In this document: one piece after another, positions 25,507 to 40,912 of the stretch | How positions within the stretch are numbered: position 1 is the stretch's first letter | Layout of the letters: each line of letters begins with the position of its first letter | From: Chloroflexota bacterium | GTDB taxonomy: Bacteria; Chloroflexota; Anaerolineae; J036; Brachytrichaceae | DNA: 43,703 bases | NCBI GenBank assembly: GCA_030550095.1 | Contig: JAUQQA010000019.1 | Coordinates: 1 to 43,703 of the forward strand | Reading direction: 5' to 3' | Notes under the pieces: generated by a model | Told to the model about the DNA's origin: nothing | Database searches by the model: none | Seen by the model: the letters and a program-made list of their open reading frames with translations, nothing else | Made by a program: the position numbers and the translations under genes

Positions 25507-26160
25507 ATGCGCAATAATTTTCCCGCCTTGGGTGAGGTCGCGGCACTTCTGGCGCGCTTGCAAGCAAGGCTCCAAGGTGAGCTTCCTGGCGAGCGCGCAC
25601 ACGCCCCGATGCGCCCACCAGGGCGCCTGAGCGCACCGCCACCCGAAATGCCTCCAGCGCGCCAAGCAGGCGTGCTCTTGTTGCTTTACCCGCGCAGCAG
25701 CGTGCTTCACTTCGTGCTCACGCAGCGCGCGAATGCGCTCACCCGCCACGCAGGGCAAATCGCGCTGCCTGGTGGTCAGTTCGAGGATCACGATGGGGAC
25801 ATCATCCGCACAGCCTTGCGCGAGGCGAGTGAGGAATTGGGTCCTTTGCCGCCGGCGCTGCGCGTGCTCGGTCGGCTTTCGCCTGTATATGTGCAGCCAA
25901 GCCACTTCTGGATGACGCCCGTCCTCGCCTACACCCCAACACCACCGTTGTTCCAACCTGCGTCCTCAGAAGTAGCTTCGCTCATCGAGGTCCCAATCAC
26001 GGCATTGCTCACCCCCCAAAGCCGCTGCATGATTCAACGTGTGTTGAGCGATGGCGCACTTGCTGAAGTGCCTGCTTTCCGCTTTGCGACGTATGAGGTT
26101 TGGGGTGCAACTGCAATGGTGCTCAACGAATTTGCAACATTGCTACACGAGGTGCTTTGA
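25507..26160 (+). CDS. Nudix hydrolase, CoA pyrophosphatase (NudL) type
   Basis: 217 residues from the ATG at 25507. A TTG at 25486 lies inside the preceding terminator and is rejected. The Nudix box is seen as GQFEDHDGDIIRTALREASEELG (about 91-113). The preceding LTRHAGQIALPGG is the UPF0035 motif that distinguishes CoA diphosphatases. The enzyme would cleave CoA or its derivatives to 4'-phosphopantetheine and 3',5'-ADP. It overlaps the translin gene tail-to-tail by 18 bp. Confidence 0.88.
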   Translation: MRNNFPALGEVAALLARLQARLQGELPGERAHAPMRPPGRLSAPPPEMPPARQAGVLLLLYPRSSVLHFVLTQRANALTRHAGQIALPGGQFEDHDGDIIRTALREASEELGPLPPALRVLGRLSPVYVQPSHFWMTPVLAYTPTPPLFQPASSEVASLIEVPITALLTPQSRCMIQRVLSDGALAEVPAFRFATYEVWGATAMVLNEFATLLHEVL

Positions 26161-26802
26161 GCTTTGCGCGCCCGCATCCAGGCGCGCAGCCATTGCCTCA
26201 AGCGCTTGACGCAGCCAATGCTCGCGCACGAAAAGCGTGAAATCGCCCCGCGTGCGCTCTAACACACCGCGCACTAAGTCCGTACTTCTTCGCAGGTTGC
26301 CCGTCAGCGCGTCAGGAAAATCCATGATCACCAACACATCGTAAACGTCATCCATGAAGGCAAGCAATCGCTCACACTCCTCCAGCATTCCTTGGCGCAT
26401 CAAGTCGAGGATGCGTCGCCGCACCTCGCCTACTGCCTCTGCCAATCCATTGAGATAAGCTGCGAATTCAACACCTAACGCCTCTGGCTCAGGCAATGCC
26501 TCGCCCCGAGCCACAGCGAGCAAGATGCGTGCCTCGGCGAATTCTTTCGCTGCGTCTTGAACGTAACCCGAGACCAGCAAGTCGGGATACGCGGCGAGCA
26601 CGGCGTTCATCTCCTGCAGGCGCTGTTGTGCCTCGTGGAGCGAGGCCTCGGCGTCTTGCCAGGCATTGCGATGAATGGCGCGCACACTTAACGCGCAAGC
26701 GCGGATCACTTCCCGGGAAAGCACAACAGCGCGATCGCGCGCAGCGTTTTTCTCTTCCCACGCTCTGTGAATGCGGCGCCCAATCTCAAGCAAAGGCTCC
26801 AT
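26143..26802 (-). CDS. Translin-family protein
   Basis: 219 residues, all-helical. It matches translin in the order of its landmarks: REVIRACALSVRAIHR (first helix), SGYVQDAAKEFAEARIL with LPEPEALGVEFAAYLNGLAEAVGEVRRRILDLMRQG, DDVYDVLVIMDFPDALTGNLRR, then a long helix TDLVRGVLERTRGDFTLFVRE. Translins are octameric single-stranded DNA/RNA-binding proteins; with TRAX they form the C3PO RNase. Archaeal members exist and bacterial ones are uncommon. Acidic residues (E/D in QDAAKEFAEA and MDFPDA) sit where nuclease residues occur, but activity is unproven. GATAAT at 26816-26811 precedes the ATG by 8 bp with no SD. Its 5' end borders the DnaA-box cluster. Confidence 0.82.
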   Translation of the reverse strand: MEPLLEIGRRIHRAWEEKNAARDRAVVLSREVIRACALSVRAIHRNAWQDAEASLHEAQQRLQEMNAVLAAYPDLLVSGYVQDAAKEFAEARILLAVARGEALPEPEALGVEFAAYLNGLAEAVGEVRRRILDLMRQGMLEECERLLAFMDDVYDVLVIMDFPDALTGNLRRSTDLVRGVLERTRGDFTLFVREHWLRQALEAMAARLDAGAQSSKHLV

Positions 26803-26810
26803 GTGCGTGC

Positions 26811-26816
26811 ATTATC
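26811..26816 (-). promoter_or_regulatory. -10 element (GATAAT) of the translin gene, leaderless type
   Basis: GATAAT on the minus strand ends 8 bp before the ATG at 26802. No SD is present and the -35 is not clear. Confidence 0.4.
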
Positions 26817-26882
26817 CTTGTGGTTTATTTTGGTAGTTGTAGTAGAGCACCTGTGGAAAACGCCAACGACTCGATCTAACCC

Positions 26883-27042
26883 CAAGATATGGCGCTCCTT
26901 CCTTTATAAGGGCCAAGATATGGGGGTTAAAACGTGGAGAGGCTGTGGATAAGCATAGATTCTCTGTGGATAACCTGTGAACGCCTTGTGGATAGAGGGA
27001 CGAGGAGACTTATCCACATCTGTGGATAAGTACAAGATATGG
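26883..27042 (+). repeat. Three copies of CAAGATATGG inside the candidate origin
   Basis: Exact 10-mers lie at 26883-26892, 26914-26923 and 27033-27042; the first two share a preceding C (11-mer). The first copy is preceded by TAACC and the second followed by GGGTTA. They do not match the DnaA box and may bind another origin factor. Confidence 0.8.
27009..27030. repeat. Perfect inverted pair of DnaA boxes
   Basis: CTTATCCACA and TGTGGATAAG face each other with a 2-bp spacer, making a 22-bp near-perfect palindrome at the centre of the cluster. Confidence 0.9.
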
Positions 27043-27162
27043 GGTGTGGATATGTGGATTTGCCTAGGAAATTCACAGGCTGTGGATAAGTGTGGATAAA
27101 CCTGTGGATAACTTTGCGGAGTTGGGTATAACCGCTAAGAAAAGAGTTAAGAGCTTTTAACC

Positions 27163-28077
27163 ATGCGACTCTTGAGCGCTGAGGAAACGGCTCAAGCTTT
27201 GCCGTGGGCAGACTTGGTTGAAACGCTGCGCATCATGCTGGATGCTCAGCAACAAGGTCGTGCTGTTGCGCCGTTGCGCCAGCAGATGGCGCTGCCAAAT
27301 CAGGGCGCGCTGCTCACCATGCCTGCTGCTGATGAGACCTTGGCGATCGTCAAAGTGGTGAGCGTTCATCCGCGCAATCCTGAGTTGGGGCTGCCGCGCG
27401 TGCAGGGCGAGGTGGCAGTGATGCGCGCAACAGACGGGACGTGGCTGTTAATACTCGATGGTCAGGTGGTCACAGCACGGCGCACCGCGGCACTCTCTGT
27501 GCTTGCAGCACAAGCGCTTGCGCAGCCAAGCGCAAAGAGGGGGCCCTTGCTCGTCATCGGTGCTGGTGTGCAAGCAGAAGCGCATCTGTTCGCGTTTGCG
27601 GCGACGTTTGAAGGGATGCGCATCTTCGTTGCTGGACGCACGCCAGAGCGCGTGCAAGCGCTGGTTGCGCGCGCACAGGCAGAGGGGATAGACGCGCAAA
27701 CAGTTGCGGATTTGCAGGCTGCGCTGCCACAGTGTGGCATGGTGATCACGGCGACAAGCAGCTCAGTGCCCGTGCTTCCTGACGCAGTGCGCGAGGATGC
27801 CTTCGTGGCAGCGATTGGTGCTTTCACGCCGACGATGGCGGAGTTGCCGCCAACTTTGGTGCGGCGCGCGCGGATCGTAGTGGATACGCTTGAAGGTGCT
27901 CAGCACGAAGCTGGCGACCTCATTCAGGCAGGCGTCAATTGGGGACTCGTAGAACCTCTTGCTGAAGCACAGCACAGACCGCCTGCTGGGGGTGTGACGG
28001 TGTTCAAAAGTGTGGGGTGTGCGCTATGGGACTTAGCCGCTGCGCATGTCGCGTTGCGGCATGTTGGGATGCGGTAG
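27163..28077 (+). CDS. Ornithine cyclodeaminase/mu-crystallin family protein
   Basis: 304 residues. The family includes ornithine cyclodeaminase, alanine dehydrogenase (archaeal type) and ketimine/pyrroline-2-carboxylate reductases. Seen are the N-terminal LLSAEETAQALPWADLVE, the substrate-side lysine region (AIVKVVSVHP), VTARRTAALS and the dinucleotide-binding loop VIGAGVQAEAH at about 128-138. VITATSSSVPVL and GAFTPTMAELPP follow. Which substrate it uses cannot be read. The leader is about 25 nt from a TATAAC at 27127; no clear SD is visible. It is the first gene to the right of the candidate origin. Confidence 0.87.
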   Translation: MRLLSAEETAQALPWADLVETLRIMLDAQQQGRAVAPLRQQMALPNQGALLTMPAADETLAIVKVVSVHPRNPELGLPRVQGEVAVMRATDGTWLLILDGQVVTARRTAALSVLAAQALAQPSAKRGPLLVIGAGVQAEAHLFAFAATFEGMRIFVAGRTPERVQALVARAQAEGIDAQTVADLQAALPQCGMVITATSSSVPVLPDAVREDAFVAAIGAFTPTMAELPPTLVRRARIVVDTLEGAQHEAGDLIQAGVNWGLVEPLAEAQHRPPAGGVTVFKSVGCALWDLAAAHVALRHVGMR

Positions 28078-39356: not shown

Positions 39357-40912
39357 AGCGGGATGTTGCCGTGTTTGCGTGGTGGGTTGCTGTCGCGCTT
39401 GTTGCGCAGCATTTGCAAGGCGTTGATCAGGCGTGGGCGAGTTTCATGGGGTTCGATGATGTCGTCAATGAAGCCGTATTGCGCGGCAACCCAGGGGTTG
39501 GTCACCTCTTCTTCATACTGGCGCACGAGTTCGGCTTTTTTCGCTGCAGGGTCCTCAGCAGCGGCGATTTCGCGTCGGTAGATGATGCTCACGGCCCCCT
39601 CAGCGCCCATCACCGCTAGCTCTGCGCTGGGCCAAGCGAGCACGAGATCGCCGCGCGTTGCGCGAGGGTTGAGCACGCAGTAGGCGCCGCCGTAGGCTTT
39701 GCGCGTGATCACGGTGATCTTGGGCACGGTCGCCTCGCAGTAAGCGTAGAGCAGCTTGGCGCCGCTGCGGATGATGCCGCCGTGTTCCTGCGCGACGCCA
39801 GGGAGAAAGCCAGGCACGTCCTCAAAGGTGATGATGGGGATGTTGAAGGCGTCGCAGAAGCGCACGAAGCGCGCGGCTTTCTCGCTGGCTTTGATGTCCA
39901 GCACGCCCGCAAGCACGGCGGGTTGATTTGCGACGATGCCCACTGTTTGTCCGCCAAGCCGCGCGAAGCCAATGATGATGTTCGTCGCGTAATGCTCCTG
40001 CACCTCGAAGAACGTGCCCGCGTCCACCACGCGGCTGATCACCTCTTTCATATCGTAGGGCTTGTTTGGGTTGTCGGGCACGATGCGGTCAAGTTCCTCA
40101 TCAGTGCGCAGCGGGTCATCGGTGCTTTTGACGCGCGGCGGGTCTTCCATGTTGTTGCTTGGCAGGTAGCTGAGCAGCTTGCGGATGAGGAAGAGGCAAT
40201 CGCCTTCGCTCTCGGCTGCGAAGTGTGCCACGCCGCTGATGGTGTTGTGCACCATCGCGCCGCCTAGCTCCTCGAAGGTGACGTCTTCGTGCGTCACGGC
40301 TTTTACCACATCAGGCCCAGTGAGGAACATGTAGCTGTTGTTCTTCACCATGAAGATAAAGTCGGTGAGCGCTGGGGAGTACACCGCGCCGCCTGCGCAT
40401 GGGCCCATGATGGCGCTGATTTGGGGGATCACGCCGCTGGAGAGCGTGTTGCGCAGGAAGATCTCGCTGTAGCCCACCAGTGAGGCAAGTCCCTCCTGGA
40501 TGCGCGCGCCGCCGCTGTCGTTCAAGCCGATGATCGGCGCGCCGTTCTTCAGCGCCATATCTTGGATTTTGACGATCTTGCTGGCGTGCGCAGCGCCGAG
40601 GCTGCCGCCGAGGATGGTGAAGTCTTGGGAGTACACGTACACCAGTCGCCCATCAATCGTGCCCCAACCCGTCACCACGCCATCGGTGAGGTAGCGATGG
40701 TTGCTCATGCCGATGCCAGTGGTGCGGTTAGTGACGAAAGCATCAATCTCGCGGAAAGAGCCAGGATCAAGCAGCAACTCAAGGCGCTCGCGTGCGGTGA
40801 GCTTGCCGCGCGCGCGCTGTTGTTGCACGCGCTCTTCGCCGCCACCTTGGCGGCTCCGTTCGCGCATTTCGCGCAGTTTGGCGATGCGGGGATCGAGGGT
40901 GTCTGAGGTCAT
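39353..40912 (-). CDS. Acyl-CoA carboxylase, carboxyltransferase (beta) subunit, PccB/MmdA type
   Basis: 519 residues, full length. Transfers CO2 from carboxybiotin to an acyl-CoA such as propionyl-CoA. It starts with a helix [42 protein letters not shown]. The N-half has [12 protein letters not shown] and [11 protein letters not shown]. The C-half has [35 protein letters not shown] and [11 protein letters not shown]. These place it among propionyl/methylmalonyl-type subunits. The biotin carboxylase/BCCP partner is not in the window. Both ends overlap neighbours by 4 bp. Confidence 0.93.

Follow-up and report, generated by a model that had tools for sequence, protein, structure and literature searches.

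A DnaA-box cluster upstream of a translin/Trax-family gene as the probable chromosomal origin, away from dnaA, in a relative of Candidatus Roseilinea

The intergenic region and its DnaA boxes

The window, i.e., the whole stretch of 43,703 nucleotides analyzed here from a Chloroflexota genome, contains an intergenic region of 360 bp (26803-27162) between two divergent genes. To the left lies a translin/Trax-family gene (26143-26802, minus strand) and to the right a gene for ornithine cyclodeaminase/pyrroline-2-carboxylate reductase (27163-28077, plus strand), assigned using Pfam and NCBIfam. The translin-family gene is the conserved neighbor, present in 53 of 60 relatives, and the cyclodeaminase gene the non-conserved one. 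The name translin, given to the left-hand gene in the preliminary description, holds at the level of the family profile, which is similar to solved translin/Trax proteins and matches the archaeal Trax structure AfTrax (3zc1) with an E-value of 2.3e-29; it does not hold for Pfam Translin, which matched the window protein below threshold (E 0.0027), as it did all 10 of 10 family members. NCBIfam PRK14562 matched the window protein with an E-value of 1.4e-77, under its curated cut-off. The NCBIfam name of this model, 'haloacid dehalogenase superfamily protein', looks wrong, as the profiles match archaeal Trax.

Scanning the window for DnaA boxes revealed seven perfect boxes (TTATCCACA/TGTGGATAA) and three boxes with one mismatch between positions 26852 and 27111, exactly the numbers previously given for this gene-free DNA. 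The perfect boxes are located at 26944-26952, 26965-26973, 27010-27018, 27021-27029, 27081-27089, 27091-27099, and 27103-27111, and the one-mismatch boxes at 26852-26860 (TTTTCCACA), 26987-26995, and 27045-27053, the last in tandem with a further TGTGGAT directly to its right. Nine of the ten boxes point the same way, on the minus strand; the perfect box at 27010 is the sole one in the opposite orientation. Such a density is far above chance: allowing up to one mismatch, the 43.7-kb window holds 14 boxes compared to 2.72 expected, 10 of the 14 fall inside the cluster, and none of 100 shuffles of the window reached 14.

The genome (2,347,360 bp in 67 contigs, 97% complete) contains 13 perfect boxes in total. 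Seven of them lie within one 168-bp stretch, which is this cluster, and the remaining six are singletons on six contigs. The genome-wide count suggested in the preliminary description thus leaves the cluster at 27 kb as the sole box cluster in the genome. That the six outlying boxes form an ftsA-ftsZ pair or any other cluster was ruled out, as all are single.

Given that the boxes sit between two divergent genes, they could belong to a DnaA-regulated promoter of the translin and cyclodeaminase genes, and the ftsA-ftsZ junction does have pairs of DnaA boxes in the host family. We regard this as very improbable, because a promoter would need far fewer than ten boxes in 260 bp, Roseilinea does not conserve the cyclodeaminase side, and the skew evidence from relatives, described below, speaks against it.

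The ftsA-ftsZ junction itself carries two perfect DnaA boxes in Roseilinea and related genera (L058, 1375-1560; also L053, L054, and L059-L063). In the Roseilinea genus, these boxes are 21 bp apart with a -35-like hexamer, TTGACA, between them, an arrangement suggestive of ftsZ regulation by DnaA. This pair is not among the perfect boxes of the genome studied here.

Placement of dnaA, conservation, and GC skew

The preliminary description had reported dnaA, dnaN, and rpmH to be absent near the cluster and had named a denser rival cluster beside dnaA as one of the findings that would speak against an origin here. In the genome, all three genes map to other contigs (dnaA to C62, dnaN to C34, and rpmH to C58, with the box cluster on C44), so that none of them adjoins the candidate origin. 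The dnaA gene is complete, encodes a protein of 454 aa with ATPase and DNA-binding domains, and is flanked by glycosyltransferase and YceG genes; judged from the contig ends, with the contigs unjoined, it lies at least ~35 kb from the candidate origin. Its surroundings contain no box cluster and merely scattered one-mismatch boxes. The dnaA site was therefore rejected as the origin of this genome, and no rival cluster was found there.

Judged by its closest named relatives, the host, an uncultured bacterium, belongs to the family of the class Anaerolineae (Chloroflexota) that holds Candidatus Roseilinea; the Roseilinea genus is g6 here. Boxes are found at the same place in three genomes of the host genus g1, in eight of g6, and in two to three of g7. 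In g1, the genome G002 shows a near-identical arrangement with six perfect boxes among 10 upstream of translin and several one-mismatch boxes, and G001 has a more degenerate set upstream of the same gene. The boxes are also weaker and more degenerate in g6, where the origins have few good boxes (one to four with up to one mismatch), and more degenerate in g7. The gene on the other side of the boxes differs among relatives, e.g., Ppx/GppA-CHAD in the g6 genome G021, unlike the cyclodeaminase gene here, which links the boxes to translin.

Conservation is limited to part of the family. No box cluster was present at translin in g2, g4, and g8, and the g3 genome yielded no translin gene; in g2 and g3, boxes precede dnaA instead. 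Several other Anaerolineae families carry a box cluster directly 3' of dnaA. Outside the host family, we detected no perfect-box cluster upstream of translin, the nearest case being L150 (Anaerolineales) with six one-mismatch boxes ~1 kb from translin, and translin is therefore no class-wide origin marker. In the DnaA tree, which has open forks, g7 falls outside the group of g1, g3, g5, and g6, and the move of the origin to translin may have been a single event or a repeated one.

At L032 (G024 contig 384, 206-1279), the boxes preceding translin recur in the same pattern 537 bp away; either origin-like DNA was duplicated in tandem, or the assembly is at fault. The origin of G004 is ambiguous, as box clusters occur both upstream of its dnaA and next to a gene whose family is unknown (L055, C15:37149; C26:6171). 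The class relative G041 (L047) has another candidate origin remote from dnaA: its box cluster lies between transketolase and PhoX-like genes, and degenerate boxes there are accompanied by a TAGTAGTAG run on the opposite strand.

The GC-skew minimum, proposed in the preliminary description as a check, was analyzed in the complete g6 genome G021 (4.67 Mb) using 39 usable 20-kb stretches, which cover about a sixth of the chromosome. A two-breakpoint fit placed the origin at 3.05-3.17 Mb and the terminus at ~1.2-1.3 Mb, and none of 200 permutations fitted as well. The skew of Roseilinea is weak, with an R2 of 0.43 for the two-breakpoint fit. When 2.96-3.41 Mb was scanned without gaps, the skew was lowest at 3,155,001; the perfect box preceding translin is ~8 kb off, at 3,163,019, whereas dnaA, at 4,020,520, is 857 kb away. 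The minimum thus lies at the site orthologous to the cluster rather than at dnaA.

In the same-genus genome G002, the cumulative skew of the 125-kb contig C51 drops to -1817 over ~118 kb and turns at the cluster-bearing end, so that a cumulative minimum coincides with the site in this relative as well. G016, assembled in five contigs, is only loosely consistent with such a placement: its local skew minimum is at ~527-546 kb and its translin gene at 596 kb, ~50-70 kb apart. In our own window, from a genome in 67 contigs, the skew turns up at 27 kb, yet the first 17 kb are also positive. The complete genome G036, used as a class-level control, has a broad skew plateau at ~2.0-2.7 Mb that decides nothing.

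Contig C51 of G002 also contains two perfect parS sites (40,904 and 40,961), 83 kb from the cluster, and is syntenic both with the window contig C44 and with the parS contig of the genome studied here (C34). Within g1, i.e., in this genome and in G002 (L241, L240), a conserved parS lies at the junction of EAD7-domain and G5/DUF348-domain genes. In the Roseilinea genus, a search for parS near the origin yielded no consensus site in three of four genomes, and in G021 only a one-mismatch site far away.

These data also bear on two other explanations. A fragmented metagenome-assembled genome can contain foreign contigs, and the cluster could then be a binning artefact or the origin of an integrated plasmid or second replicon. 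This is scarcely credible here: C44 carries ordinary chromosomal genes (PrmA, tRNAs), it is syntenic with the 125-kb contig of the sister genome that also bears parS, and translin and boxes occur together in a complete relative chromosome. The E. coli sites datA and DARS are box clusters away from dnaA, and the cluster could be a DnaA-titration or -reactivation site of that kind rather than an origin. We consider this very unlikely, though less so than the other alternatives, since a sole cluster in a 97% complete genome leaves no other origin candidate, the GC skew switches here in relatives, and a likely unwinding module of the trio type is present.

A putative unwinding module and a second motif

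Reading from the translin start codon, the left end of the region consists of AT-richer DNA, the trinucleotides TAG TTG TAG TAG, the spacer AGCACC, and the box TGTGGAAAA (26852-26860), the first of the module. The AT-richer stretch at the translin start (26803-26833) is a candidate DNA unwinding element beside the boxes, though with just 59% AT; this share, calculated over 26803-26834, is reached by 0.8% of 32-bp windows in the contig. The DnaA-trio-like run occupies 26834-26845 on the plus strand, was recognized from the sequence and from the TAGTAG-box spacing in relatives, and is separated from the box by the 6-bp spacer (26846-26851).

The elements follow the order of the basal unwinding system (BUS) in the oriC of Bacillus subtilis. 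The wording '5'-tail encoding DnaA-trios' in the literature agrees with the B. subtilis strand layout (PMC8287927). In the BUS, box-bound DnaA moves onto 3'-GAT-5' trinucleotides and stretches the strand open, and the published rule has a box separated by no more than 16 nt (peak 10-13) from three or more NAN trinucleotides, with 3'-GAT-5' preferred (PMC8287927). The run studied here is broken by TTG and so violates the three-in-a-row rule, its spacer is 6 nt, and its box has one mismatch. The run of G002, TAGAAGTAGTAG, conforms to the rule, with four trinucleotides in a row, 6 nt, and two tandem boxes, the spacer to the perfect box being 15. Other Roseilinea origins usually have one TAG, 12 nt, and then TGGGGATAA, most of them with a single clear TAG before the first box.

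A search for TAGTAG within 0-16 nt before a box found it, at distances of 6-15 nt, in this origin and five others of the 14 related ones, and never in 760 kb of sampled background. Within the genome studied here, the TAGTAG-TGTGGA string alone is insignificant because one more copy exists and reversed-pattern controls occur eight times; the case is made by position and conservation. Together, this makes a Bacillus-type DnaA-trio unwinding module at this origin likely but not proven.

Taking the ORF map, the sole box cluster of the genome, conservation upstream of translin in g1 and Roseilinea, the skew switch in relatives, the parS sites of a sister genome, and the order of the trio elements together, the whole region 26803-27162 is very probably the chromosomal oriC, located away from dnaA, and the original suggestion to this effect is well supported. 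According to this model, DnaA produced from the solitary dnaA gene elsewhere would bind the ten boxes, and its assembly would reach the box at 26852 and be handed onto the TAG trinucleotides at 26834-26845. Engagement of the trios would then open the AT-richer DNA that abuts the translin start codon and allow helicase loading. The unwinding side would thereby be fixed to the translin gene, which fits the retention of this neighbor and the turnover of genes on the opposite side.

Besides the DnaA boxes, motif searches revealed a second motif, CCAAGATATGG, present on the plus strand at 26882-26892 and 26913-26923, with a third copy, ACAAGATATGG, beside a box pair at 27032-27042. Its form CAAGATATGG has five copies in the genome, of which three fall within 160 bp at the cluster, between the DnaA boxes, and one more lies inside a gene at 40555; its reversed control has none. 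When 13 origins were searched with the boxes masked, the second motif (width 12) scored 219 compared to 152-162 in shuffled sequences, a score that kinship inflates. Other families have similar sites in some of their dnaA-side clusters, and these overlap boxes in part. It is suggestive, nothing more, that CCAAGATATGG may be the site of a second origin-binding protein, and the motif offers a concrete lead to such a protein. The broader proposition that a novel initiation regulator of Anaerolineae binds three ordered copies of an origin-specific CCAAGATATGG-type motif between and beside the boxes in this family, and that the Trax-type protein encoded at the unwinding element is functionally tied to initiation, is speculative and in our view unlikely.

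Comparison with known origins

In a survey published in 2008, only 342 of 568 (60%) bacterial chromosomes had an oriC that both adjoined dnaA and lay close to the skew switch (PMC2275245), and the neighborhood of the origin is often conserved within a group (PMC4285127, review). The location away from dnaA is supported, but its surprise is, in view of this survey, smaller than the preliminary description implied. Origins far from dnaA are common, and the translin-side origin is a sound addition to a known category, not a category of its own. We found no report of a translin-side origin or of a Roseilinea origin among the open-licence papers searched. The assignment supplies an origin for a group of Chloroflexota that includes phototrophs and is known almost exclusively from metagenomes; it allows closed genomes to be oriented and growth rates to be estimated from coverage (peak-to-trough). 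Moreover, an origin off dnaA in part of one family, alongside dnaA-3' clusters in several other families, represents a small natural experiment on origin movement.

As in E. coli and in Synechococcus, where the origin lies near dnaN, the origin is not at dnaA (PMC4285127, PMC2275245); here, however, the conserved neighbor is a translin/Trax-family gene. The dnaA-3' clusters of other Anaerolineae (L049, L065, L068) likewise have perfect TTATCCACA boxes ~20-21 bp apart, and some carry CCATATCT-like sites, as here, whereas in the present case the cluster is at translin and dnaA is elsewhere. With the oriC of B. subtilis (DnaA boxes 6/7 and trios), the region shares the order and strand of AT-richer DNA, TAGs, short spacer, and TGTGGA box. 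It differs from B. subtilis in that neither dnaA nor dnaN adjoins it, its boxes flank the trios on a single side, the perfect boxes are many more, and its own trio run is short and broken.
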